Below are positions 9,363 to 50,909 of a stretch of 64,000 bases of DNA, in pieces. Numbering within the stretch: position 1 is the stretch's first letter; every line of letters starts with the position of its first letter. The stretch is from contig CANKZM010000004.1 of NCBI GenBank assembly GCA_947488305.1, forward strand, positions 501,501 to 565,500, in the 5' to 3' direction. Below the pieces are notes generated by a model. The model made no database searches. It was not told the DNA's origin and saw only the letters and a list, made by a program, of their open reading frames with translations. The stretch comes from an uncultured Roseobacter sp. (lineage in GTDB: Bacteria > Pseudomonadota > Alphaproteobacteria > Rhodobacterales > Rhodobacteraceae). Position numbers and translations under genes: made by a program.

Positions 9363-10625
9363 ATGGAACAGTTTGACACGATTGTTGTCGGAGCGGGACA
9401 GGCGGGCATTGCCACCAGCGAACATTTGGGCAAGCTCGGAATTGATCATGTTGTGCTGGAGAGGGCGCGTATCGCAGAGCGTTGGCGTACGGAACGCTGG
9501 GACTCATTGGTGGCCAATGGTCCGGCCTGGCATGACCGTTTCCCAAACATGGAGTTCTCCTGCGACAAGGATGCCTTTGCCGACAAGGAAAGCGTCGCCC
9601 AATACTTCGAAGACTACGCACGCATGAATAATTCGCCGGTTCGGATTGGCGTCAATGTGTTATCCGTCGAGCGTTTGGAGCGCCTCGCGGGGTTTCATGT
9701 CAAAACTTCGCAAGGTGATATGACCGCCCGCAACGTGGTCGCAGCCACAGGTCCGTTCCAAAGCCCAGCCATTCCTGCCCTCATCCCGCAGACGGAAAGC
9801 GTGACGCAATTGCATTCGACAGCCTATCGCAATCCGCAAACGCTGGCCCCGGGGGCTGTCCTCGTGGTGGGCGGTGGTTCATCAGGCTCTCAGATCGCCG
9901 CGGAACTCAACGCGGCCGGGCGCAGGGTCTATTTCTCAATCGGGCCACATGATCGGCCGCCTCGGCGCTATCGCGGTCGCGACAACGTTTGGTGGTTGGG
10001 CGTGCTGGGCAAATGGAACATGGATACGCCAGGGCCGGGGACCGAGCATGTAACCATCGCGGTCAGCGGAGCACATGGCGGCAGAACCGTCGACTTCCGA
10101 CGTCTTGCCGGAGAAGGAGTCACGCTGTTGGGCATGACGAAAGGGTACGAGGCGGGCAAAATTCAGATCGCGGACGACCTTAAGGCCAATCTGGATGCAG
10201 GCGATGCGAATTATCTGTCGATACTCAGGGAAGCAGACGATCACATCGCGCGCAATGGGTTAGAGTTGCCCGAAGAACCTGAAGCCCATGTTCTCCCCGA
10301 CGATCCTGACTGCGTGAAAAACCCGATTGCCGAGCTTGATCTTGCAGCCGAGGGTATCAGCACGGTGATCTGGGCGACGGGGTTTCGATTTGATTATGGT
10401 TGGCTAAAAGTCGACACCCTCGACACTTCGGGCAAGCCACTGCACCAACGCGGTGTCTCACGTGTGCCGGGTTTATACTTTGTGGGACTACCTTGGCAGA
10501 CCCGTCGGGGCTCGTCCTTTATTTGGGGTGTCTGGCATGACGCGAAGTTCATTGCAGATCAAATCGAAATCGACCGGAATTACATCCGTTATCACACTGA
10601 CTGCCAGACAATAGAACAGACCTGA
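9363..10625 (+). CDS. NAD(P)/FAD-dependent flavin monooxygenase (CzcO-like)
   Basis: VVGAGQAGIATSEHLGKLGIDHVVLER and VVGGGSSGSQIAAEL dinucleotide-binding motifs. Confidence 0.9.
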   Translation: MEQFDTIVVGAGQAGIATSEHLGKLGIDHVVLERARIAERWRTERWDSLVANGPAWHDRFPNMEFSCDKDAFADKESVAQYFEDYARMNNSPVRIGVNVLSVERLERLAGFHVKTSQGDMTARNVVAATGPFQSPAIPALIPQTESVTQLHSTAYRNPQTLAPGAVLVVGGGSSGSQIAAELNAAGRRVYFSIGPHDRPPRRYRGRDNVWWLGVLGKWNMDTPGPGTEHVTIAVSGAHGGRTVDFRRLAGEGVTLLGMTKGYEAGKIQIADDLKANLDAGDANYLSILREADDHIARNGLELPEEPEAHVLPDDPDCVKNPIAELDLAAEGISTVIWATGFRFDYGWLKVDTLDTSGKPLHQRGVSRVPGLYFVGLPWQTRRGSSFIWGVWHDAKFIADQIEIDRNYIRYHTDCQTIEQT

Positions 10626-10834
10626 GCAGTCCAGAATCTAGACGGCACCGCCAACGAACTGCATGTCGCCATCAAAACAAGAGATCAATGCATCGCGGCG
10701 TTTTGCCTTGGTATTCGAGAATGGCATTCTGCCCCCTGGCGCGGAGCGGGCGAAAACCTTGCTAGATCACCGGTGCGCGAGCAATTGTCGGTTGCACCCA
10801 AAACTCGCAACAAAACGCGCCCTCAAACAGCCCA

Positions 10835-11278
10835 CTAACCTTTGTCGTTCCAGCCGCATGGTCCAGCCATCGCAACACTAAGCCGCCAAGATCCTTCGTC
10901 CAGCACACAGATATAAAGGGCATCGATCGCGGCTATTTCCGATCCATCAGACTTAAGTCGTCGCAAGTCTCTGAGTTCCGCCAAGGCGGCATACTCATTG
11001 CACATGGTCACAACCACTTCGCCGATTTCTGTATGATCGAAGTCTTCAGCTTCGAGTTCGGCAAACTGCCGTCGTAGCTTCGATATAACCGCGGCTTTGT
11101 CGGGTATGTGAAGGTTGCCGCCCGGTGCGATGTAAGTGGCTGGCACCGAGAAGAGTGACGCCATCTTTTCAAAATCACGATCGTTCCACGCAAAAAGATA
11201 GGTCTCGATCAGTTTGGCGATTTCTCTTTCAGACAATGCGAGGTCCTCCCATCCGAAATTTTTGCATTTCTGAAGCAT
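10835..11278 (-). CDS. SnoaL/NTF2-like domain protein
   Basis: LIETYLFAWNDRDFEKMASLFSVPATYIAPGG; size typical for the NTF2-like fold. Confidence 0.65.
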   Translation of the reverse strand: MLQKCKNFGWEDLALSEREIAKLIETYLFAWNDRDFEKMASLFSVPATYIAPGGNLHIPDKAAVISKLRRQFAELEAEDFDHTEIGEVVVTMCNEYAALAELRDLRRLKSDGSEIAAIDALYICVLDEGSWRLSVAMAGPCGWNDKG

Positions 11279-11572
11279 AGCAGGTTTCTAACACAATCCT
11301 TTGAAAACGGTCGTTCAGCGATCTGGCCCCCCGGTCCGCTTTGTCCGCGGCGCGGTCATCGGTGAAGCTTGCGGCCATCATCTCCGCTTCTGTCGGTTCC
11401 AATGGCTAGGTGAAAGCAAGGTACCAGTCGCTCGAACCTCCAAATCCGATCTGCTGACTCCCGTCGCAGCGTTGGTAGGAATGTGCAACTGCAATCCACC
11501 GATTTTCGCCTCTAGGGCCTGACCTTATCGGATGTCAGGGTTGCGGTTTTCTCGAATGGATACGCGGTAGTT

Positions 11573-13822
11573 CTATGGCTCGTCCAGAATTGGTCCTGGC
11601 GGCAGTCTACTAGTGACCGCATCATGCGCTGCGGCGCTGACAGCTTTCTTTTGTTCCTCCGTCAGGTTCTCGTCCCCGGCCAGTTCCACTTTGACGTTAC
11701 GTTCGGCCATACGGATGCCGTTGGCTTCGAATATGTCACGCACACCCTGATAAGCGTCACGGCGGACGAGCCATTGTTCGCCGGGTCGGGTCATAAACTT
11801 GACCCCGATGACCATGTTGAACTCTTCCATGCGGCGGACGCCCTGTGATTTCAGAGTCTCGATGATGGAGTCGCCATAGTCCGGGTTTTCCTTCAATTGG
11901 GCGCCGACTTGCTTGATCAGTTTCTTCACGAGCTTCAAGTCTGTATCGAACGGCACCCTGAATTCGAGTTTCATGATCACCCAGTCGCGCGAATAGTTGG
12001 TCATGGATTTCAACTCTCCGAATGGCAGGGTATGTACCGCCCCGCGGTGGTGGCGGATTTGCAGTGACCGGATCGAGATTTTCTCTACCGTGCCACGAAG
12101 TTGGTCGATCTCAACATACTCGCCCACTCGGAAAGCATCATCGATCAGGAAGAAGATGCCCGAGACAACATCTTTCACCAACGACTGTGCGCCAAAACCA
12201 ATTGCGATACCCAGGACGCTCGCGCCGGCAAGGATCGGCGCGATGTTTACGCCCATGGAAGACAGGATCGACATTGCCACCATCAACAAAAGCGCGACCA
12301 TTAGTACGACACGCAAGAGCGGCAAAAGCGTCGCCATCCGTGCCTCCGGACCCGGTGCGGACCCATCTGTCGGTGGACGGTACGAATTGAGCCTGCGATC
12401 AATGGCTGTCCGCGCCCAGGTCCAAAGAAGGTCGGCAATCAGTAACGCGGCTGCGCTGTCCAGAAGGATCGTAAAGATGCGTTGCATGACCGTTGGGTTT
12501 TCTGTCGTTTCAAAGATGCCCAAGTTCCAGATCAGCGCGAGTATCAAGCCAACCGTAATGATGGCTGCAAAACGCACGACACGCTGTGCGATCGGGCGGT
12601 ATGTCTCGTAAGGATCTATGATCTCGACTGTCTGCTCGCTTTCTGGATCAGGCGTGGTTTCATCGGTCGCATCGATGACCTGCGGTGGTGGAAGTTTTGC
12701 CATGTAATCTGCAATGGCACTGTCAAATGCGTGGTCGACCCAGTCACGAAGGAGCTTCAGCGATACAAGCAAGGCCCCTATGCAAAGAACGCTCCACATG
12801 ATCGGGCGCAGATCCAGGATCCACAATGCCAACGATATGACAATGAGCAAACTGAGAAAGCCGCGCCATTTGCCGGTGGACTTCGTGGCTGCATCAGAGC
12901 TTACGCGACCTGCGAAAAAGAACCCGACATGAAGGCACAACAACGCGGCAAAGGCGACGAAAAGCGACAGCATGACGGAGACCGCCAGGATCGCATTCTG
13001 ACCGCCAGGCGGGTTGAAAACCTCAATGACTTGCTGAAAGACATCACGAGACGCAACCGCGACGATCAGGACAGTCGCGAAGGCCAAGACAGAACGACAT
13101 ACAACCCTGGCCATTGCGGTACTGACAGGCACAAGCCGCAGACGGGGAACAAAGGGTGCGAAGAATAAGATGAGCATGGCGCCTACAACCCGAATGGCAA
13201 CGATTGCCATAAGGAGATTGAGGATCAGCGCAAAAAGGATTGGAGGCCAATCGAAAGCAGAAAACGCCCCGATGCTGCCTATTGCGAAAGCCAACAGACC
13301 TGTGAGGGTAAGAGCCGCGCGTGTGACAGCTGCTGTGATCCGCTTGGCAGGCGTCTTGAATTGAGTGATTTCAAGACGGCGACGAACAGGGTTCGAGTAT
13401 TGTCGGAAAAGCCATTCGAGGCCCGCACCGAGAAACAGGAAGATCAGAACGAACGTAAGGCTCTGTACCCGCCGGGTGTCGGTTACCTGCGCCTCCCACC
13501 GATCCTGCACCATTTCAGGGGCTTGCCCCAAGCCTTCCCATGTGCGGATTAGCGTGCCAATGCGTCGCTGCGTCTGTAAAACCAATGCATCAAACTGGTC
13601 GCGCAACCCGAGTGCTTCCGGTTCGATTAAGTCCTCGGCGCTCTCCGCCTGCTGCCGCAGCCACTCCTGAATGCGGTCGTCAGCAAGTAGCCGGGTGAAC
13701 TCATGAAGATCATTTGTCGATGGGGATTGAATTGACGGATCGGTCTGCGCCGATGCCGGCTCAGATAGTAGTAAAACGAGGCCACAAACCAAAGCCGCTA
13801 ACGCATGACGTAGGGCGATCAT
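11573..13822 (-). CDS. Mechanosensitive ion channel protein, MscS family (large form)
   Basis: Many TM segments; GASVLGIAIGFGAQSLVKDVVSGIFFLIDDAFRVGEYVEI MscS pore/beta domain. Confidence 0.95.
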   Translation of the reverse strand: MIALRHALAALVCGLVLLLSEPASAQTDPSIQSPSTNDLHEFTRLLADDRIQEWLRQQAESAEDLIEPEALGLRDQFDALVLQTQRRIGTLIRTWEGLGQAPEMVQDRWEAQVTDTRRVQSLTFVLIFLFLGAGLEWLFRQYSNPVRRRLEITQFKTPAKRITAAVTRAALTLTGLLAFAIGSIGAFSAFDWPPILFALILNLLMAIVAIRVVGAMLILFFAPFVPRLRLVPVSTAMARVVCRSVLAFATVLIVAVASRDVFQQVIEVFNPPGGQNAILAVSVMLSLFVAFAALLCLHVGFFFAGRVSSDAATKSTGKWRGFLSLLIVISLALWILDLRPIMWSVLCIGALLVSLKLLRDWVDHAFDSAIADYMAKLPPPQVIDATDETTPDPESEQTVEIIDPYETYRPIAQRVVRFAAIITVGLILALIWNLGIFETTENPTVMQRIFTILLDSAAALLIADLLWTWARTAIDRRLNSYRPPTDGSAPGPEARMATLLPLLRVVLMVALLLMVAMSILSSMGVNIAPILAGASVLGIAIGFGAQSLVKDVVSGIFFLIDDAFRVGEYVEIDQLRGTVEKISIRSLQIRHHRGAVHTLPFGELKSMTNYSRDWVIMKLEFRVPFDTDLKLVKKLIKQVGAQLKENPDYGDSIIETLKSQGVRRMEEFNMVIGVKFMTRPGEQWLVRRDAYQGVRDIFEANGIRMAERNVKVELAGDENLTEEQKKAVSAAAHDAVTSRLPPGPILDEP

Positions 13823-39668: not shown

Positions 39669-41456
39669 TTATTCGACTTCGACGATGTAGCCACAACACC
39701 ACTGATGGGACATTGTATCGTCCCACCAGAACGGGCCGCTCGGGCCGCCGCGCTGGCCAGACGACCGGAAGAAGCGGGAATAGTGTTGCTGGCCCTGAAA
39801 ATTGTCGGGATTGCCTCGGGAGAAGTTATTGTAGGTCAAAGCGTCTCCGCTGGCCCAGATCCAACCGCCGCGAGGCTCGTTGCTCCGGTCGGCCTGGTAA
39901 AGCCCGATCATGGGTCCGAACCAAGCGCCTTCGGAATCCTTGAGCGTGAACCTGTCGTCTTGCATGAAAAGATCGTAGAGGAACTGGTTTTCAGCGCGCG
40001 AGTTGATTGTTACCAGATTACCGCCAGCCCTCTTGGCATCCCGCAAGGCATCGTTCCAGCTGCTGTGGCCGCGATTTAGCACGACAACATAAAGAGTGCC
40101 CTCAAAGTAACCCCACAGCAATTCGCGTGTGCCCAATTCTCGGTGGACTTTGCGCAACCGGGGTTCCAGCGCTTCGGGCAGTTCATCCGCGTCATACCGT
40201 TTGGCTTTGCCGGTCTGGAGTTTCTTCATCTCGGGTACATTCGGCAACGCGCGCAGCAATGCGGCATCGATCTGTTGCCCCGGTGGCAAACCTGCGACCA
40301 GACGCGCAGCAGCGACCGCACGACGGGTGCGCGGGCCAAAATCTCCATCGATACCCCCAACGTCCTGACCCATATACAAGAGCGCCTCTTGCAACAGTTT
40401 GCGCTGATCCCTGTCCAGCACTGCTTCGCGTTGCCCGTTGGGGTATTCAGCCTTGAGCCAGGGTTCGCGGTTCAGGCGTCGCGTGTTGATCTCCGTTTCC
40501 TCGCGGAGCTTTTCACGCTTCAACGCGGCCAGTTTCACGACCTCATGCTCTGGCTGATCTTCGTACTTTTTGATGAAAGTGTTCCAACTGTAGATCGTGT
40601 TGTTCCGGTCCGCTCTCGCGAAATCGGCAATGATGGATGTGTTAGCGGCTGACGATGCGGGTGCCGCAGCGACGGGTACCGGTTCAACTTTTTTGGGTGG
40701 CGTCAGGTAGATGTCCTGCCCGGGAAGGGAGCCGTAGATAAAGGGCTCCTGATATCCGCCGGTAGCCGCAAACACCGTGTCGCGCACCTTGCGGAACATC
40801 TTCCCCAGTTCAAGGCCAGGTTCCTCGATATGTTTGAGCAAAGCTTTGGCGTAGGGGCTGTTGCGTCCATCCCCATCAAGCGCAAGCGTACCGCCTCGTG
40901 CAGCATACCCGACAACAACGCCACTTGGGTCAATGCGCCCCAATCCGCGCCCGATAGATCGGGTGGCGCTGCTGACGGCCATATCGGACAGGAAAGGGTT
41001 GTTTCGGCATGCGTCCACCAGAACGATCTTCAATCCTTTGGCGGAGGACAGGGCGTTCACAACAGCATCAAGGCGGATTGCCTCAAATTCGACATCGGTG
41101 TCCCGTTTCAACTCGGCATTCACGGGGATCAGGTAATTTGTGTTCTCGATCTCCACCCCGTGTCCTGCGAAGTAGACCACCGCGACATCTGCGTTTTCCG
41201 CAGTCTGTGCAAAATCCCGCAACGCCAACCGCATTTTGCGGTAGTCCATATCGACGCCCATGGTCACATCAAAACCAAGACGCTCGAACGAGGCGGCCAA
41301 ATCTTCCGCATCATTGGAGGGGTTGGTGAGGTTAGATACGAATTCGTAGTCGGAGTTGCCGACGACAAGCGCCACGCGCTTTTGTGAAGCTTGCGAAGCG
41401 GTCGCGCTCAAGCAGGTGAAAAAGAATATAAAAATCAGACGTATAAACAAAATCAA
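39669..41456 (-). CDS. Secreted caspase-family (C14) protein with PG-binding-like and C-terminal C-type-lectin-like domains
   Basis: Signal peptide; VVYFAGHGVEIENTNYLIPVN (His) and IVLVDACRNNPF (Cys); DQRKLLQEALLYMGQDVGGIDGDFGPRTRRAVAAAR; SSWNDALRDAKRAGGNLVTINSRAENQFLYDLF...WCCGYIVEVE. Confidence 0.88.
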   Translation of the reverse strand: MILFIRLIFIFFFTCLSATASQASQKRVALVVGNSDYEFVSNLTNPSNDAEDLAASFERLGFDVTMGVDMDYRKMRLALRDFAQTAENADVAVVYFAGHGVEIENTNYLIPVNAELKRDTDVEFEAIRLDAVVNALSSAKGLKIVLVDACRNNPFLSDMAVSSATRSIGRGLGRIDPSGVVVGYAARGGTLALDGDGRNSPYAKALLKHIEEPGLELGKMFRKVRDTVFAATGGYQEPFIYGSLPGQDIYLTPPKKVEPVPVAAAPASSAANTSIIADFARADRNNTIYSWNTFIKKYEDQPEHEVVKLAALKREKLREETEINTRRLNREPWLKAEYPNGQREAVLDRDQRKLLQEALLYMGQDVGGIDGDFGPRTRRAVAAARLVAGLPPGQQIDAALLRALPNVPEMKKLQTGKAKRYDADELPEALEPRLRKVHRELGTRELLWGYFEGTLYVVVLNRGHSSWNDALRDAKRAGGNLVTINSRAENQFLYDLFMQDDRFTLKDSEGAWFGPMIGLYQADRSNEPRGGWIWASGDALTYNNFSRGNPDNFQGQQHYSRFFRSSGQRGGPSGPFWWDDTMSHQWCCGYIVEVE

Positions 41457-41486
41457 GCGACTCCGGCGGAAATGTCCTGAGTGGCC

Positions 41487-42182
41487 TTATTGTTGCGCAT
41501 CAAGGATTTTTGTCAAATCCAATCCCGTGCTTTGCGAAAGGGACCGCAGCCCACCTACGTCATTCAGCTCTAGTTGGCCCGAGAAGCCAACGTCAAAAAG
41601 CATTGCCAGCGCGTCGTACCAGTAGCCAACGGCAGCAGCGTCCCGGGCGGATTGAGGCAGCTTTTCGGGGACGCGATATTCTATGTACCCGCGGGAGGAT
41701 GATGCCTCCGATGTACCGTGCCGTACTTCCCAGGCGTAAAGCTTGTCGGGCAACAATTGGACCTTCGAGCGTTCCAGGTTCAGCCCGTGATAACCGGCTG
41801 GGAATCGCCCGTCGATCGTGGCAACAAAACCCCGGGCCAATCCGACCTGTGGACTGATGGCTACGGTGACAGGTCCGTCGACGGGTTCCGCAAAATACCA
41901 GATCATCAAAGGCTTTCCGGTTGCAGTCAGCCCGCCTCCCGGTGGGGCCAGCAGTATGGTCTTTGTATTTGAGATATCGACGTCGCGCGTCCCGGCGCCC
42001 AGTCTGTCTGCTGGTGCACCAGATGCGGGTGGGATGAATACCAAATCATCGGATTGCTTGTCTGGCGCCTGTTCGTCACTGGCCAGCACACCAGTGGCGC
42101 AAAGCGATGCCACCAACACGATTGCGCATACCCAAAAGGCAATCGCTTGTAGTTTTTTTATGTCAAAGGGTCTGTCACTCAA
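41487..42182 (-). CDS. DUF928 family protein
   Basis: Signal/TM N-terminus; LVFIPPASGAPADRLGAGTRDV...WYFAEPVDGPV...WYDALAMLFD. Confidence 0.75.
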   Translation of the reverse strand: MSDRPFDIKKLQAIAFWVCAIVLVASLCATGVLASDEQAPDKQSDDLVFIPPASGAPADRLGAGTRDVDISNTKTILLAPPGGGLTATGKPLMIWYFAEPVDGPVTVAISPQVGLARGFVATIDGRFPAGYHGLNLERSKVQLLPDKLYAWEVRHGTSEASSSRGYIEYRVPEKLPQSARDAAAVGYWYDALAMLFDVGFSGQLELNDVGGLRSLSQSTGLDLTKILDAQQ

Positions 42183-44089
42183 TCGACTGCCCTCATCTGA
42201 AAAATCTCAATACGTGTTGATCCGTCGTCATGGAGCAAAGTGCCGACAGGCTCGGCGCTGACGCTTTGTCCGCTGCGGGTCAGCGTAGCACCTGACATGC
42301 ATATCAAAGCGTCGTCAGACTGTCGATCTTGCAGGATTTTGCCATAGGCTTCGATGCGGGCTGCCATGTTCACCGTGTCTCCGACAAGGTTGTATTGCAT
42401 TGTCCCCCGATTGCCGAGCACTCCTCCGTAGACAGTGCCGCTGTGCAGACCGATGCGGACCTTGTAGGCGGGCTCCTCTCCCGTTTCGGCGTTCAGTGCG
42501 GTCACTTGCTGTCCAAGGGCCCAGGCGCATCGGCAGGCCGCAAGGGCATCTGCGCAGATCTCATCCGGAGTGTTCCGCTGTAACGGCGCTCCGAACGCGA
42601 TCAGCAGGCCGTCACCGGTGAATTTTTCGATGAACCCACCGTGCGCGCGCGCGACATCGCTCAACGCATCTAGCGCGCGACTCATCCAACCGACAAAGCG
42701 CGCGGGATCGGTTTTCCCGCCGATGGCGGTTGACCCTGCGATGTCGAGGAACAGGATCGTGGCCTCCAAATGTTGTGGTCTTGGTTTGCCGCCAGACATG
42801 AAAAGCGCGCGATTTTGCCAAATCTGCGCGGCGAGGTCGGGGGAAAGATGATCCGAAAAAAGTGTCGCCATTATCTTGCGCTGACGCCTCGCTAAAATGG
42901 CGAGCGGTCCAAAGCTGAACAAAAATCCCAAGGCTAACGCGAGCAACGTTGGCACCATGGGCAGCCACAGCCCCCGGTTCAGCAAATGGTTCATCCCGCC
43001 CGCCATAATCAGGAGCAATGACGGGACCACAACGAGAAGAGCCATGCCGGACCGCGTGATCCGCCCCAATACCGCACCAAAGCCTGCCGCCAAAAGTATT
43101 AGCAGGTATTGTGCGGTTTTGGGGATGTCCCGCAAAAGCCTTTCACGACCGCTGGCAACATCCAACAGGGATTGCACCGCGCTGGCGTGGATTTGTGATC
43201 CGAAAGTGAATCTTGGGCCAATCCGGTTGTTCAGCGGGGTCAGGAAGTAGTCTTTGATAGATTCGCTATTTAAGCCAACAATCACAACCTTGCCCTTTAG
43301 GTCGTCCGTTGGCCCTGATTGCAAAATCTCTCGTGCCGCAAATGTCTGAGCGACTGGGAGCGCGTGGCCAAAAGCCAGCGGCACCTGGTATCCTGCGGCA
43401 TCGACCCGGGTATACCCGCCGAAACCGGAACCAATAGGCGGCAGCGGGTTGGCGCCCAGCATCATGACCGTTGGGTCATCCGGCGCTGGAGTGATCCCTT
43501 CCAGCCCAAGTTTCTGCATGACGAGTTTCAGGGCAAAGGACAAATGCACCCCATCGCGGTCGCTGACTAGCAACAGTGCTCGCCGAACCACGCCGTCCCG
43601 ATCAATGGGAATGTCAGAAAAGCCAAAGTTTCCGGTCGCCCGTACGGCCTCCGGTGGGTTGACGGTAAGCCCGCCCTCTGGGCCAAGTTTCGAAATTGCG
43701 ATTGCACTGGTTTCATCGAACGCCTTAGTGAGGGCGTCTGCACCGATACCGACAGAGCTGTCTCGGTAGATGTCCAACCCAATCGCGGCGGGGTCCGACC
43801 TATCGATTGCGAGCAGTATTTCCGCAATCTTTGCATCAGGAAGCGGCCACCCCCAAGTGGCGAGGTCCTGTTCCTCAACGGTGACCAGAACGACATCCGG
43901 CGCTGGTTCCACCAAGGCGACACGCGACGTAACCTTGTCATGGTGTATGAGTTCGAACCGCTCCAGTCCGCCGGTAAGCCGAAGTGCAGAAACGAGGCAA
44001 AAAGCGAGACAAGCGGCAAGGGCAATCAGGAACGCATTCCGCCTTGGATTTGATAACACTGCATCCATTTGCGCTCTCTTGCCCGGCAT
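42179..44089 (-). CDS. CHASE2-domain class III adenylate/guanylate cyclase
   Basis: CHASE2 N-terminus (FELIHHDKVTSRVALVEPAPDVVLVTVEEQDLATWGWPLPDAKIAEILLAIDRSDPAAIGLDIYRD), C-terminal TM helices, cyclase domain ILFLDIAGST...FIEKFTGDGLLIAFG...YNLVGDTVNMAARIE. Confidence 0.95.
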   Translation of the reverse strand: MPGKRAQMDAVLSNPRRNAFLIALAACLAFCLVSALRLTGGLERFELIHHDKVTSRVALVEPAPDVVLVTVEEQDLATWGWPLPDAKIAEILLAIDRSDPAAIGLDIYRDSSVGIGADALTKAFDETSAIAISKLGPEGGLTVNPPEAVRATGNFGFSDIPIDRDGVVRRALLLVSDRDGVHLSFALKLVMQKLGLEGITPAPDDPTVMMLGANPLPPIGSGFGGYTRVDAAGYQVPLAFGHALPVAQTFAAREILQSGPTDDLKGKVVIVGLNSESIKDYFLTPLNNRIGPRFTFGSQIHASAVQSLLDVASGRERLLRDIPKTAQYLLILLAAGFGAVLGRITRSGMALLVVVPSLLLIMAGGMNHLLNRGLWLPMVPTLLALALGFLFSFGPLAILARRQRKIMATLFSDHLSPDLAAQIWQNRALFMSGGKPRPQHLEATILFLDIAGSTAIGGKTDPARFVGWMSRALDALSDVARAHGGFIEKFTGDGLLIAFGAPLQRNTPDEICADALAACRCAWALGQQVTALNAETGEEPAYKVRIGLHSGTVYGGVLGNRGTMQYNLVGDTVNMAARIEAYGKILQDRQSDDALICMSGATLTRSGQSVSAEPVGTLLHDDGSTRIEIFQMRAVD

Positions 44090-44343: not shown

Positions 44344-46443
44344 ATGGAAAACGAAGACCAGTTGCGTCTGGCCATCGATATTGGTGGTACTTTCACCGAT
44401 GCCGTATTGATGGGGGCGACCGGCCAGACACTTGCCACGACCAAGGTGCCGACAACGCCTGACACGCCAGCACACGGCGCAATTTCGGGCGCAGAACAGG
44501 TCTTGCGGCAAGCTGGGGCCGAGTGGGGTAATATCACCTCCTTCATTCACGGGACGACACTGGCGACAAATGCTCTGATCGAGCGGCGCGGCGCGCGGGT
44601 TGCGACGATTACCAACGACGGCTTCAGGGATATTCTGGAGATTGCTTATGAAAGGCGGCACAGCCAATACGATATTGATATTGAGAAGCCTGACCTGATT
44701 GTGCCGCGTCATCTGGCCTTTACGATATCAGGCAGGATTGATGCAAAAGGGTCTGAACGTACCCCTCTCGCAGAAGCCGAAGTGGCTGATATAGCGCGTA
44801 AACTACGGGAGGAAAAGGTTGAGGCGGTGGCCGTTTGCCTGCTACACGCTTACGCCAACCCTGCACACGAATCCCGTCTGCGGTCCCTGCTGCAATCCGA
44901 AATGCCGGGACTTGTCATTTCGCTCAGCCATGAGGTCAGCCCCGAGGCGCGGGAATTTGATCGTCTCTGCACAACGATCGCAAATTCTTACATCCAGCCG
45001 CTCATGGCAGGCTATCTTGCCGATATCCGGACAGAATTCTGCGAACGCGGGCTGCGTTGCCCAATCCTCATGATGACAGCGAGTGGGGGAATGACCACGC
45101 TTGAGACCGCCGCCCATCTGCCGATCCGATTGGTCGAATCCGGTCCGGCGGGCGGCGCTATTCTTGCAGCACGCATCGCAGCGCAGGTAGGAGCCGAGCA
45201 AGTCCTGTCGTTCGACATGGGCGGCACCACGGCCAAGCTTTGTCTGATCGACGATTTCCGTCCTCAGTCAGCGCGTAAGTTTGAAATCGCCCGTGCGGAG
45301 CGGTTTACCAAGGGATCAGGCATGCCGGTACGTATCCCGGTCACCGAGATGATCGAAATTGGCGCGGGAGGTGGCTCCATCGCCGCGTTGGACACCCTTG
45401 GCCGGGTAACCGTTGGGCCGCAAAGCGCGGGCGCTGAACCCGGACCTGCCGGTTTTGGGAAAGGGGGGACGGATGCAACCGTAACGGACGCGGATATCCT
45501 ACAGGGCTACATCCTGCCCGAACGGTTCGCCGAGGGCCGGTTGCGTATCATCCCAGCCGCCTCAGAACAGGCGATGCAGGAGGGCATTGGCACTGGTTTG
45601 GGAACGGATGCCGGGTCCGCAGCAAGTGCTGTCAGTGAAATCGTGGACGAAGCAATGGCCGCCGCCGGCCGCATGCATGCGGTGGAATCCGGCAAGGATC
45701 TAAGCACTCGGGTCATGATCGCATTTGGCGGCAATGGCCCGCTGCACGCGACGCGGGTCGCCCGGCGCGCGGGTGTCGAGCGTATCATGATCCCGCCAAA
45801 TCCCGGCGTTGGGTCAGCGGTAGGTTTCCTCTTTGCGCCCGTGTCATTCGAGATCATCCGGTCTCACTACGTCACATTGGATGATCTTGATGCCGAAGCG
45901 CTGGCACGTCTTTTCGAGAACATGCAGCATGAGGCTGAAAGCGTGGTTCGTTCGGGGGCACGGGACGTGCCGCTCACCTCAAGGCGCGTTGGCTTCATGC
46001 GCTATAAAGGGCAGGGGCATGAGATCGAGATTAACCTTGGCGATGGCCCCTTGGATCAATTGGATGTGGGTGTTCTGGAGGCGGCCTTTGCAATGGAATA
46101 CAGCCGCCAATTCGGGCGTGTGGTGCCAGGTATGACGGTGGAAGTGCTCAACTGGGGTCTGGTCGTGGCCACAGAAACTTCGCGGCCCAAACCACAAGCG
46201 CGGAAACCGCAACGCAACCTGCGGCGCGCGGAAGAAAAGCGCGAGCTTTGGTGTAACGTCACGCGAAATTGGCGGCAGGCAGGGGTGTTTGAGCGTGCAG
46301 CACTTGCGCCGGGCGACAGCCTGGTTGGACCGGCCCTGATCGTCGAGCCTCAAACAACCACATTCGTGAGTGCCGACTTTTGCGCCGAAGTCGATGACGC
46401 TGGAAATATCTGGCTGATACAGGAAACGGAGACTGACCCATGA
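44344..46443 (+). CDS. Hydantoinase/5-oxoprolinase subunit A (HyuA-type)
   Basis: RLAIDIGGTFTDAVLM; HGTTLATNALIERRGARVA; SFDMGGTTAKLCLI. Confidence 0.96.
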   Translation: MENEDQLRLAIDIGGTFTDAVLMGATGQTLATTKVPTTPDTPAHGAISGAEQVLRQAGAEWGNITSFIHGTTLATNALIERRGARVATITNDGFRDILEIAYERRHSQYDIDIEKPDLIVPRHLAFTISGRIDAKGSERTPLAEAEVADIARKLREEKVEAVAVCLLHAYANPAHESRLRSLLQSEMPGLVISLSHEVSPEAREFDRLCTTIANSYIQPLMAGYLADIRTEFCERGLRCPILMMTASGGMTTLETAAHLPIRLVESGPAGGAILAARIAAQVGAEQVLSFDMGGTTAKLCLIDDFRPQSARKFEIARAERFTKGSGMPVRIPVTEMIEIGAGGGSIAALDTLGRVTVGPQSAGAEPGPAGFGKGGTDATVTDADILQGYILPERFAEGRLRIIPAASEQAMQEGIGTGLGTDAGSAASAVSEIVDEAMAAAGRMHAVESGKDLSTRVMIAFGGNGPLHATRVARRAGVERIMIPPNPGVGSAVGFLFAPVSFEIIRSHYVTLDDLDAEALARLFENMQHEAESVVRSGARDVPLTSRRVGFMRYKGQGHEIEINLGDGPLDQLDVGVLEAAFAMEYSRQFGRVVPGMTVEVLNWGLVVATETSRPKPQARKPQRNLRRAEEKRELWCNVTRNWRQAGVFERAALAPGDSLVGPALIVEPQTTTFVSADFCAEVDDAGNIWLIQETETDP

Positions 46444-48089
46444 CCCAATCGCAAACCGAACTGCAAGTCATGTGGAACAGGTTGCTGGCCGTGGTCGAGG
46501 AGCAGGGCCAAGCCCTGATCCGCGCCGCGTTCAGCCCCATCGTCCGGGAATGCGGAGATATATCGGCGGGCATCTTTGATGCTGAAGGGCGGATGCTTGC
46601 ACAAGCCGTGACCGGGACCCCAGGGCACATCAATACCATGGCCGAGGCCGTCAAAACGCTGCGGTCACACTTTGCCGATACGAATATGGCACCCGGTGAC
46701 ATATACATGACAAACGATCCATGGATTGCGTCTGGTCACTTGAATGATTTCCTCTTGTTGATGCCGGTTTTTGTGGGCGGGAATGTTATTGGTTACACCT
46801 CCTGCACCTCGCACCTTGTCGACCTGGGTGGCCTTGGCATGGGGCCTGAAGGGTCCGACATCTTTGATGAGGGGTTGTTGATCCCACCGTGCAAGCTGGT
46901 CAGCGCGGGTACGGTCAATGCATTGCTGATGGACATCATCAAGGCCAACTCTCGCGAACCCATTGCGAATGAGGGCGATGTCTATGCGCTGATTGCGTGC
47001 TGCGAAGCCGGTGCCACGCGTCTGGAGCAGATGATGGCAGAATTCGGCATCAATACGCTTGATGCGCTTTCAGACTACATCATCGGGACATCACGCCGTG
47101 CCACTGAAAAAGCAATTTCTGAGCTTTCACTTGGTACATGGAACAGCCAGTTGATCTGTGATGGGTACGATGCGGATGTTACCCTTTGCGCTGAACTGAC
47201 CGTCGGCAAGGATTGCCTCGTGGTTGATTTCAAAGGGACAGACGCCTGCGTCGAAAAAGGCATCAACGTCCCACTGAATTACGCCACGGCTTACGCGGTC
47301 TTTGCGCTCCGCTGTCTGATTGGCCCGGAGATCCCCAACAATGCGGGCTCGCTCGCCCCGTTTCAGGTCAAGGCGCCGAAGGGCTGCATCCTCAATGCGC
47401 AACCGCCGTCGCCCGTGGCCATGAGGCACACTTTGGGGCAGATGATGCCAGACCTGGTCTACGGTTGTCTGGCGCAGGCGTTGCCGACCCGGGTCCCGGC
47501 AGAGGGGGCGTCCTGCATGTATGATTTGCCTTTGCGGCATCTGCCCGAGGCCGCAGACGATGACGGGAGCCATTTTGCGCTGGAACTGGTTTTCAATGGG
47601 GGCACTGGCGCGCGTCCTCAGCGTGACGGTTTGTCGGCGACCGCCTTCCCCAGCGGCGTTTGGGGTAGCCAGATCGAGACAACCGAAGCCGTGGCACCGG
47701 TTCTATTTCGAAGGCGTGAATTGCGCAGGGACTCAGGCGGTGCAGGTGCGCAGCGAGGAGGCTTGGGTCAACACATCGAGGTTTGTCCAGCCGAGGATGA
47801 GGGCTTCATGCTTTTTCTGTCGGTCGAGCGCGTCAATAACCCTGCGCGGGGGCGGGAAGGCGGCGGCGATGGCGCTGCCGGGCGTATCCGCATCGGGATG
47901 CATGGCGATGATTTGCCGGGCAAAGGAGTCTTTCGCGTCGAAGCAGTTGAGACACTGATTTTTGAAACCCCCGGAGGCGGTGGCTTCGGCCCACCCAAGG
48001 CGCGTAAACAAGACGCCGTGGCACGGGATTTACAAGCCGGTTTCATAAGTGCCGAAGCCGCGCGCGTCATCTATGGAAAGACCTCATGA
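46440..48089 (+). CDS. Hydantoinase/5-oxoprolinase subunit B (HyuB-type)
   Basis: VVEEQGQALIRAAFSPIVRECGDISAGIFDAEGRMLAQAVTGTPGHINTMAEAV; FETPGGGGFGPP; ATGA overlap. Confidence 0.96.
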   Translation: MTQSQTELQVMWNRLLAVVEEQGQALIRAAFSPIVRECGDISAGIFDAEGRMLAQAVTGTPGHINTMAEAVKTLRSHFADTNMAPGDIYMTNDPWIASGHLNDFLLLMPVFVGGNVIGYTSCTSHLVDLGGLGMGPEGSDIFDEGLLIPPCKLVSAGTVNALLMDIIKANSREPIANEGDVYALIACCEAGATRLEQMMAEFGINTLDALSDYIIGTSRRATEKAISELSLGTWNSQLICDGYDADVTLCAELTVGKDCLVVDFKGTDACVEKGINVPLNYATAYAVFALRCLIGPEIPNNAGSLAPFQVKAPKGCILNAQPPSPVAMRHTLGQMMPDLVYGCLAQALPTRVPAEGASCMYDLPLRHLPEAADDDGSHFALELVFNGGTGARPQRDGLSATAFPSGVWGSQIETTEAVAPVLFRRRELRRDSGGAGAQRGGLGQHIEVCPAEDEGFMLFLSVERVNNPARGREGGGDGAAGRIRIGMHGDDLPGKGVFRVEAVETLIFETPGGGGFGPPKARKQDAVARDLQAGFISAEAARVIYGKTS

Positions 48090-49168
48090 TTGAGCCTCAA
48101 GCACAATTCGCAGAGATGTCGGGCTACGCGGTCGCGGAATTGACGGTGTCGGCAGGCCAGCAAATTTATTCCCTGTCTCAGAACGAAAGCCTCAGACCGC
48201 CAAGTCCCGTGGCGCTCGCCGCGGCTGGCAAATCGATTGAAGATGCAGCGGCGTATCCTGATTCGGATTGGCGGTTGTTGCGCTCTGCATTGGGCAGGCT
48301 CCATGGCATAGATCCGGAATTGATCCTCTGTGGCAATGGATCGCTGGAACTGATCGGAACAACTGCGCAGGTCTATGGTGGGCCGGGTCGGTCGGTGCTG
48401 GCGCCCGTTCACGCATACCCCTTCTTTCGAACAGCCGCATTGATGTCCGGCGCGCGGTTTGACACAGCGCCGGAAAACGGTTTGACCGTATCCGTCGATC
48501 ATCTTGTCGGTGCAGTGCGCGAGGATACATCGATTGTTTTTGTGGCCAACCCCGGCAACCCGACAGGAACACGTCTGCCTGTGAGCGAACTACGACGTTT
48601 GCGGGCTGCGCTACGGCCGGAAATCCTACTCGTGATTGATGAGGCTTACGGCGAATTTGCAGATGCCATAGGCGATCGGTGCTGGGACATGGTTGACGCG
48701 GGCAATTGCATTGTCCTTCGGACGTTTTCCAAAGCCTACGGGCTCGCTGGGCTGCGTATTGGGTGGGGTCTTTTTCCGCAATCTGTTGCCCAGAACATAC
48801 GAAAGGGTCTGAACCCGAATAGTGTGAGTTCCGTGGCCCAGGTTGCGGCAATGGCTGCCCTGGAGGATCAGGGCTACATGCAAGAGACCTGTGAAATCAC
48901 CTCGGAGAGTCTGGAAAAGTGGCGCGCCGTTCTGACGGATCGAGGTTTCGACGTTCACCCTTCAACAACAAACTTCATGCTGATCCGCATGGCCAATGCG
49001 CAGGAAGCTGTTCACGCTGATGCCGCTTTGCGATCCGAGGGCATTTTCCTACGGGGACAAGGGGGAGCCGGGCTTTCCGAATACCTGCGTATTACAATTG
49101 CACCGGACGCCGTAATGACCAAGGCGGTTTCACAGCTCACAAAATGGAAGAAGGAGGCGCAATCATGA
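48086..49168 (+). CDS. Class I/II pyridoxal-phosphate aminotransferase (HisC-like)
   Basis: VFVANPGNPTGTRLP; VIDEAYGEFAD; LRTFSKAYGLAGLRIGW. Confidence 0.95.
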   Translation: MIEPQAQFAEMSGYAVAELTVSAGQQIYSLSQNESLRPPSPVALAAAGKSIEDAAAYPDSDWRLLRSALGRLHGIDPELILCGNGSLELIGTTAQVYGGPGRSVLAPVHAYPFFRTAALMSGARFDTAPENGLTVSVDHLVGAVREDTSIVFVANPGNPTGTRLPVSELRRLRAALRPEILLVIDEAYGEFADAIGDRCWDMVDAGNCIVLRTFSKAYGLAGLRIGWGLFPQSVAQNIRKGLNPNSVSSVAQVAAMAALEDQGYMQETCEITSESLEKWRAVLTDRGFDVHPSTTNFMLIRMANAQEAVHADAALRSEGIFLRGQGGAGLSEYLRITIAPDAVMTKAVSQLTKWKKEAQS

Positions 49169-49941
49169 AAGCATCGCGCGGATACGCCCGTCTTGGCTTG
49201 CTAGTACCCTTCACCAACTCAAACCTCGAACCGGATTTCGCTCTGATGTGCCCCGATGGATTTTCCATCCATGTTGCGCGTCTTGGTGGCTACGACGAAG
49301 AGGAAATCCCCGATGAAAGTCAGATGCGGGGGCTTGGTGCATCAGATCTTGATGAGCCTATCCGATTGCTCGCCGGTGTACGTCCGGAAGTCATGATCTA
49401 CGGGTGCACGTCCGCAACATTGACGCATGGGCCTGAATTCGACCAAGAGCTTGCGCTCAGAATCGCAGAAAAAAGTGGTGCAAAAACGGTGACTGCTGCA
49501 GGCGCATTGGTTTTTGCGTTGTCGGCCCTGCAGGCCAAACGCATTGCCTTTGCCTCGCCCTACGTGTCCGCGATTAACGACTTGGCGATCCAGTTTCTGT
49601 CCGAAATGGGGATCGAGACCTGTGCCCGGGCAGAAGTCGCTGCCCCGCTGAGCAATGAGGGGCAGGGCGCCATGTCGCCTGATGATGTTTTTGCGTTGGG
49701 CTTGCGTGCCGACACCGACACGGCTGACGCTCTTGTACTGTCCTGCACGGATATGCGCAGCGTTGAGGTGATTGATCGTCTTGAGCAAGCAATTGGAAAG
49801 CCAGTCGTTTGTTCAAACCAGGCGATGTTGTTCCAGGTACTTGCGCTGTTGGGGGAGCAGAAACCGATTTCGGGTTTTGGCACCTTATTGCAACATCCGC
49901 AGATGATGTCTGCCAGACAACCAAATACCGGAGTGATCTGA
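49165..49941 (+). CDS. Aspartate/glutamate racemase superfamily protein (maleate isomerase/arylmalonate decarboxylase-like)
   Basis: YGCTSATLTHG and LSCTDMRSVEVIDRLEQAIGKPVVCSNQAMLF; two active-site Cys regions. Confidence 0.88.
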   Translation: MKASRGYARLGLLVPFTNSNLEPDFALMCPDGFSIHVARLGGYDEEEIPDESQMRGLGASDLDEPIRLLAGVRPEVMIYGCTSATLTHGPEFDQELALRIAEKSGAKTVTAAGALVFALSALQAKRIAFASPYVSAINDLAIQFLSEMGIETCARAEVAAPLSNEGQGAMSPDDVFALGLRADTDTADALVLSCTDMRSVEVIDRLEQAIGKPVVCSNQAMLFQVLALLGEQKPISGFGTLLQHPQMMSARQPNTGVI

Positions 49942-50909
49942 TGGGCAACGTCCCGCGCGTTCTTTTGCATAACGACGAGACGGATGATCTGGCACGCGCC
50001 TTGGAGCTGGCGCACCCCGATGTCGGGTTTATCTGCTGCAATTCTTACGAGACGTTGCCGGATACATTGGAACGTTTTCGACCTGATATCGTCTACACCG
50101 TTAGGTTTGCGGGCATGCAGGGGTTTCCGCGCCAAGCGCTCTTTTCCGACATCGGCCCCGTCTGGATTGCGAACGGGGGTGCCGGTGTTGACCACTTTGG
50201 GACATGGGATCCTTCGCGCGTCACGGTGACCAATGCGGCAGGTGTCGCGGCTGACATGATGGCAGAATATGTCTTGGGAGGTTTATTGCATTTCACGCTC
50301 GATATTCCCGGACTGATGGCCGACAAAAATCTTCGGCGTTGGCCCGCACGAAAAATGAATCCATTGAAAGGCAAGACACTGCTCATCATTGGGTTAGGAC
50401 ATACGGGTCGGTCGATTGCCGCGCGTGCAAAAGCGTTTGGCATGTATGTAGTGGGAACGCGCGCCTCGCCGCGGCCAATGAAAAACGTGGATGAAGTTCA
50501 TGCTGCTGATCAATTGGACATGTTACTGTCTCGCGCAGATTTTATCGCAGTTTCGACGCCTTTGACGGAGAAGACGCGCGGTTTGCTAGGAGCAACACGG
50601 CTGGCGCGCGTCAAGCAAGGCGGGGTGCTGGCGGATGTGTCGCGCGGCGGCGTGGTCGATCAGTCGGCGCTTCTTTCAGAACTGAAAGAGGGCAGGCTCG
50701 CCGGGGCCGTTCTGGATGTATTTGAGCAAGAACCTTTGCCAAGCGACCATCCATTATGGGAGGCACCTGACGTCATCATTTCCCCGCATTGCTCCTCGGT
50801 TTATGAGGGATGGGAGGCCGCGTCCTTTGATCTTTTTCTCAAGAATCTTGCTCTGTGGCGGGCGGGGGAGCAACTCTTTAATGTGGTCGATCCGGCCAAA
50901 GGGTATTGA
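49941..50909 (+). CDS. D-2-hydroxyacid dehydrogenase family protein
   Basis: TLLIIGLGHTGRSIAARAKAFGMYVVGTR; DVSRGGVVDQSALLSELKEGRLAGAVLDVFEQEPLPSDHPLWEAPDVIISPH. Confidence 0.94.
   Translation: MGNVPRVLLHNDETDDLARALELAHPDVGFICCNSYETLPDTLERFRPDIVYTVRFAGMQGFPRQALFSDIGPVWIANGGAGVDHFGTWDPSRVTVTNAAGVAADMMAEYVLGGLLHFTLDIPGLMADKNLRRWPARKMNPLKGKTLLIIGLGHTGRSIAARAKAFGMYVVGTRASPRPMKNVDEVHAADQLDMLLSRADFIAVSTPLTEKTRGLLGATRLARVKQGGVLADVSRGGVVDQSALLSELKEGRLAGAVLDVFEQEPLPSDHPLWEAPDVIISPHCSSVYEGWEAASFDLFLKNLALWRAGEQLFNVVDPAKGY

Follow-up and report, generated by a model that had tools for sequence, protein, structure and literature searches.

The window analysed here is a stretch of 64,000 nucleotides (nt) from an uncultured Roseobacter sp. 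(GCA_947488305.1, contig CANKZM010000004.1, positions 501,501 to 565,500). Its minus strand carries, at 39669-44089, three open reading frames transcribed in the order CHASE2 adenylate cyclase, DUF928 protein and exported orthocaspase (Table 1), and this cassette looks like a protease-linked surface-sensing system in which known parts occur in a combination that the literature searched does not describe.

The three genes and their products

The cyclase gene runs 4 nt into the DUF928 gene, which a gap of 30 nt separates from the caspase gene, so that a single transcription unit is likely. These coordinates agree exactly with an earlier, sequence-only reading of this DNA, which had described three same-strand genes with the same overlap and a gap of ~30 nt. 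A promoter scan returned chance-level matches only. Both the DUF928 and the caspase gene start with TTG, and a GA-rich Shine-Dalgarno-like stretch, read by eye, lies directly upstream of each.

Table 1. Features of the cassette and of related linkers (window positions unless a locus is named; aa, amino acids; pLDDT, predicted local distance difference test score; TM, transmembrane)
Feature	Position	Strand	Basis
Exported orthocaspase, 595 aa, TTG start	39669..41456	-	Pfam, signal helix
Caspase p20 domain, aa 26-244	40725..41381	-	Peptidase_C14 1.6e-39; phmmer MALT1 6e-9
Caspase catalytic codons, His99 and Cys150	41160-41162 and 41007-41009	-	Dyad invariant
PG_binding_1 domain, aa 349-401	40254..40412	-	Pfam 6.6e-6, 26.6 bits vs cut-off 23
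C-type lectin-like domain, about aa 446-595, NPD...WxD motif	39672..40121	-	phmmer, profile and excised-domain comparisons
DUF928 protein (231 aa; TTG start) with a signal helix and an Ig/Fn3-like beta sandwich	41487..42182	-	Pfam, AlphaFold2, Foldseek
DUF928 Arg66 codon	41985..41987	-	Identity in 30/30 homologues; pLDDT <50 at aa 62-69
CHASE2 adenylate cyclase, 636 aa	42179..44089	-	Pfam CHASE2 1.9e-41, Guanylate_cyc 4.5e-17; residues, TM helices
CHASE2 domain, aa 29-339	43073..44005	-	Pfam
Class III cyclase catalytic domain, aa 439-587	42329..42775	-	D449, K489, D493, D571, N574, R578
(xxRG)n-coding 12-nt repeats, DUF928 linkers	L030 674-1594; L041 8485-9513; L029 7181-8062

The cyclase retains the metal-binding Asp449 and Asp493, the adenine-type Lys489 and Asp571, and Asn574 and Arg578, and by these residues is a class III adenylate cyclase. 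Its transmembrane helices are placed at residues 20-38 and, three of them, within 326-391, with CHASE2 between and basic residues on the inner side. This is the arrangement of a CHASE2 receptor, with an extracytoplasmic sensor between membrane helices and a cytoplasmic output domain.

The caspase and the DUF928 protein each begin with a single hydrophobic helix, after which comes a plausible cleavage site. With its p20 domain and His-Cys dyad the caspase is assigned to the orthocaspases, an assignment made with the p20 model. Across five linked caspases the dyad (H99/C150) and the pocket residue D148 are invariant (5/5). The peptidoglycan (PG)-binding region (aa 334-394) also matches a lytic transglycosylase (phmmer 7.5e-4). 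On the full-length sequence the C-type lectin profile is marginal, at 20.6 bits for a cut-off of 22.6, and on the excised C-terminal domain it passes (23.7 bits); phmmer relates the C-terminus to human RegIII-alpha (3.1e-6) and DC-SIGN (4.8e-4), and a profile built from eight homologous domains, run against solved C-type lectins, matches C-type mannose receptor 2 at 1.5e-12, with lower values for multi-lectin receptors. By three independent sequence comparisons the C-terminus is thus a C-type lectin-like domain. The EACC1-associated caspase model (NCBIfam NF047832) gave 57.5 bits against a cut-off of 140, and the protein is not assigned to that group. AlphaFold2 modelled the caspase poorly, at a pLDDT of 51.9 from five sequences.

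On the DUF928 protein of the window, the Pfam model PF06051 scores 20.6 bits (E 4e-4), under its cut-off of 26; all 14 aligned homologues match it at E <= 0.01, the best at 8e-36, and share a conserved motif with the window protein. The AlphaFold2 model has a pLDDT of 81. Foldseek relates it only weakly to Fn3 and Calx-beta folds, with a best E of 1.4e-3 and low TM-scores, and the fold is therefore named as immunoglobulin (Ig)/Fn3-like and no further.

These results bear out the signal peptide, His/Cys pair, PG-binding-like region and C-type-lectin-like C-terminus that the sequence-only reading had given the caspase, and the metal-binding Asp residues and Lys it had seen in the cyclase. Signal helices and membrane topology are also consistent with a periplasmic location of CHASE2, DUF928 and the caspase, as that reading had suggested for the first and the last.

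The genome (4.8 Mb) holds four CHASE2 genes, all with an exported-type partner: a FecR-domain protein beside three and DUF928 beside one. By analogy, DUF928 may be for the window receptor the counterpart of these FecR proteins. One of the other three, a cyclase, has as neighbours a FecR/cadherin/RTX/VWA adhesin of 1377 aa, an Omp85 protein and genes for type I secretion (L023 1-14001; C3:174000-188000). The remaining two (L024 5552-10134 and L025 4851-8833), each adjoining a FecR-domain protein, are a CHASE2CYC-profile match and a GGDEF-EAL protein; L024 also adjoins an MscS channel.

The neighbours of the cassette are metabolic genes, including a hydantoinase-like hyuA/hyuB cluster (44344-50909) that is kept in a genome of the same genus (G269), where the genes upstream of it differ. 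In G269 the cassette is absent, the hydantoinase genes are syntenic and no clean empty site could be read. The composition of the locus is unremarkable, and it is not obviously a recent mobile island.

Linkage across genomes

Our census of related loci was seeded with DUF928, leaving the CHASE2 and peptidase neighbours unselected, and counts the window locus. CHASE2 is adjacent in 20 of 24 non-cyanobacterial DUF928 loci. By chance, ~1% of loci would have CHASE2 within about 5 kb (our estimate from four CHASE2 genes per 4.8 Mb). In the stretches seen, some on short contigs, the same 24 loci carry a CHAT gene in 12 cases, encoding TPR-CHAT proteins, and a caspase gene in four; in eight a peptidase was not seen. 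Caspases and CHAT proteins both belong to the clan-CD cysteine peptidases. The third gene, where present, is thus always from this clan, and by this shared membership the caspase of the roseobacter loci seems to take the place of CHAT. The dyad is intact in those CHAT proteins from which both motifs were recovered.

Cyclase, DUF928 and caspase occur together at each of the four roseobacter DUF928 loci, at 24-51% identity and with the gene order changed in one. CHASE2, DUF928 and CHAT are also found in combination in Gammaproteobacteria, Desulfobacterota, Nitrospirota and cyanobacteria, and CHASE2 accompanies DUF928 in 5/6 loci on cyanobacterial plasmids. The association of DUF928 with CHASE2 and CHAT that the sequence-only reading had named is therefore real, and linkage is conserved beyond the window. 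Of the conditions by which that reading could have been refuted, two were checked, a lack of linkage in other genomes and a C-terminus other than a lectin, and neither holds. In a family-wide sample, 3/298 genomes hold a DUF928-like protein detectable by the window protein, each with caspase and cyclase nearby. A genome-wide scan with a single DUF928 sequence as query returned nothing; a three-row alignment succeeded. Variants of the architecture include a CHASE2 protein with a C-terminal Ser/Thr kinase and no cyclase (L027 161-2461, in a DUF928-CHAT locus with two-partner secretion (TPS) genes) and a CHAT-CHASE2 fusion on a Nostoc plasmid, adjoining DUF928 and a TPS exoprotein (L094 6190-8541).

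In a tree of the cyclases, the four caspase-linked members form one clade (100/99), and all DUF928-linked cyclases lie apart from two CHASE2 cyclases that the same genome carries unlinked (99/99, with long branches). The caspases show no such pattern, and the caspase is thus a loosely attached member, with CHASE2 and DUF928 as the core. Caspases were either recruited repeatedly or lost from the cassette. Additional copies also occur. In Ruegeria arenilitoris the cassette caspase is immediately followed by another in tandem, without the lectin domain (L033 11697-13415), and the window genome itself has a second full-length caspase of similar architecture on contig C9, a solo gene whose closest relative is the linked caspase of L034 (L026 6690-8564). 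In another genome (L084/L085; G055 C1:966000-1004000), at least six caspase genes lie within ~35 kb, with a CHASE2-type cyclase between them and transposase-like open reading frames.

The Arg66 linker and a possible signalling route

Five alignment columns are invariant across the 30 DUF928 proteins compared (30/30), and one of them is Arg66 (window numbering) in the motif PPxxGxPxxRxGGxTR. In the AlphaFold2 model the segment around it falls to low confidence directly before the well-predicted Ig-like domain. As orthocaspases cleave after basic residues via an acidic pocket (PMC6426788), Arg66 is a candidate cleavage or recognition site. Cutting at a basic site is also supported by the invariance, in the linked caspases, of the Asp two residues before the catalytic Cys (D148).

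At three loci (L029, L030 and L041) this linker is replaced by tandem 12-nt units encoding (xxRG)n, with up to 19 RG steps, which probably vary in length; in L039 it is Arg-rich. These are exactly the four non-cyanobacterial DUF928 loci with no CHASE2 nearby, while L090, a cyanobacterial locus also without CHASE2, has no array. The resulting contrast, with Arg-rich or array linkers at 4/5 loci lacking CHASE2 vs 0/25 loci having it (Fisher p = 2e-4), is a lead, since it was spotted post hoc on a small count of related rows with a threshold set by eye. A gene for a periplasmic-binding-protein receptor adjoins DUF928 in place of CHASE2 in L029 and L041; in L041 a receptor-type periplasmic binding domain is fused to an MscS channel (9553-12558), next to the array-type DUF928 and CHAT. 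A PF06051 search of G718, of the DUF928-array class, found no further arrays.

We tentatively propose, as a reading with somewhat less than an even chance, that the cassette is an envelope-sensing cyclic AMP (cAMP) switch in which the caspase cuts an envelope protein to change cyclase output. CHASE2 would lie in the periplasm and the cyclase domain in the cytoplasm, with DUF928 as an exported Ig-like partner that may bind CHASE2 physically. The exported caspase would be tethered to peptidoglycan and/or glycan through its PG-binding and lectin domains and would cleave a basic site, either the Arg66 linker of DUF928 or the CHASE2 ectodomain, thereby altering cyclase output in one direction or the other; the cAMP produced would probably drive surface traits such as polysaccharide, adhesion or biofilm. 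That a change in the ectodomain could shift output is plausible, because Sinorhizobium meliloti CyaD1 without CHASE2 produces cAMP constitutively and drives succinoglycan synthesis (PMC5498481). A further precedent for the sensor is a Burkholderia operon that encodes a CHASE2 kinase together with a LysM-FecR protein and controls biofilm (PMC5192318). Within the present data, the conserved linkage, the single clade of cassette cyclases and the restriction of the third gene to clan CD count in favour of the switch.

Several points weigh against this proposal. Cleavage and complex formation are steps that we infer. Eight of the 24 loci pair CHASE2 with DUF928 with no peptidase nearby, and the Arg is still kept. 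The peptidase of cyanobacterial fusions is predicted to face the cytoplasm, as described for the caspase of a CHASE2 fusion (PMC3501461), unlike the window caspase. In the caspase tree linked and solo copies are intermixed, and the closest full-length relative by identity (53%) is encoded alone, on a plasmid of Phaeobacter; the caspase can therefore act without the other two genes, and the cassette is not obligate.

The same observations lend themselves to a second explanation, possible though unlikely, in which CHASE2 and DUF928 signal as a pair and the caspase is a co-regulated effector of wall or envelope remodelling or self-lysis that does not act on the sensor. Peptidase-free pairs and the solo caspase relatives in the window genome and elsewhere speak for it, and PG-binding and lectin domains would suit a wall-directed effector. 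However, the peptidase is swapped within clan CD alone, and peptidase-CHASE2 fusions exist in cyanobacteria (L094; PMC3501461); together these suggest a direct link between peptidase and sensor, and the CHAT-CHASE2 fusion of L094 and the caspase-CHASE2 fusion of Trichodesmium are counted in support of the proposed switch. An extension of that switch to a cross-phylum module, in which an exported clan-CD peptidase (CHAT or, among roseobacters, a caspase tethered to wall or glycan) cuts the invariant Arg linker of DUF928 to set CHASE2 output and so passes extracytoplasmic proteolysis into intracellular cAMP, is doubtful.

Surface-protein processing is less likely still: as in TPS loci, the peptidase would mature or free an exported adhesin whose state the cyclase reports, a logic analogous to that of the Lap system (LapD/LapG/LapA). 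TpsA and/or TpsB homologues (examples checked with Pfam) are found in 11/12 CHAT loci vs 0/12 other loci, and a CHASE2 cyclase of the window genome (L023) adjoins a cadherin/RTX adhesin with Omp85 and type I secretion genes. However, TpsA/TpsB occur in 0/4 caspase loci, which sets these apart from the CHAT-TPS loci, the only ShlB of the genome sits on another contig, and no substrate adhesin was identified.

An anti-phage or cell-death system, with abortive infection through a cyclic nucleotide and the caspase, is very improbable. Defence systems do include both caspases and cyclases, and the cyclase matches PADLOC PycC models (4e-19), but the matching part is the generic cyclase domain alone, the caspase is an exported protein, the neighbours are metabolic with no cyclic-nucleotide effector gene adjoining, and no relative was found in viral contigs or phages. 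An assignment to Pycsar was likewise rejected, as no cyclic-nucleotide-gated effector lies among the neighbours. Of the functions suggested by the sequence-only reading, envelope sensing is therefore reasonable, whereas phage response and predation find no support, the window having no defence-island context. Next to no weight can be given to the lectin domain being a hypervariable receptor targeted by a diversity-generating retroelement, as cyanobacterial orthocaspase-CLec proteins are (PMC7517822), since, at the sensitivity of the search made, the whole genome yielded no reverse transcriptase (PF00078) and the surroundings of the domain no template-like repeat; this class was rejected for the window genome.

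DUF928, a family on which almost nothing was found, now has a context as the exported partner of CHASE2 receptors and clan-CD peptidases, and a candidate site in Arg66. If proteolysis there gates the cyclase, a caspase-fold protease outside the cytoplasm would act upstream of second-messenger signalling instead of as an executioner of cell death. As one study calls the ligands of CHASE2 unknown (PMC5192318), a genetically linked exported partner offers a concrete handle on that question.

Comparison with known systems

Searches of the open-licence literature on DUF928, on CHASE2 with CHAT and on CHAT with two-partner secretion did not find this system described, nor the related CHASE2-DUF928-CHAT-TPS loci (L009, L027, L028, L035, L045, L047). 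The latter share the CHASE2 and DUF928 families and an exported clan-CD peptidase with the window and differ in having CHAT-TPR for the caspase, plus TpsA/TpsB. Cyanobacterial orthocaspase-CLec proteins likewise join a caspase to a C-terminal lectin fold, but are tied to diversity-generating retroelements (PMC7517822), for which the window genome gave no reverse transcriptase.

The S. meliloti cyclases CyaD1, CyaD2 and CyaK also combine a CHASE2 ectodomain with a class III cyclase and convert an envelope signal into cAMP; there, the reported upstream part is the outer-membrane barrel protein NsrA (PMC13001267, PMC5498481). The Burkholderia BiofilmReg operon similarly pairs a CHASE2 receptor with an exported partner of peptidoglycan-binding (LysM) type, but the partner is a FecR-LysM protein, the output is a histidine kinase with a response regulator, and there is no protease (PMC5192318). 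The caspase-CHASE2 fusion of Trichodesmium erythraeum likewise joins a caspase p20 to a CHASE2 sensor (PMC3501461, PMC2853523), in one polypeptide with the caspase predicted to be cytoplasmic (PMC3501461). In the window, by contrast, the caspase is a separate exported protein with PG-binding and lectin domains, accompanied by DUF928 and coupled to a cyclase output.

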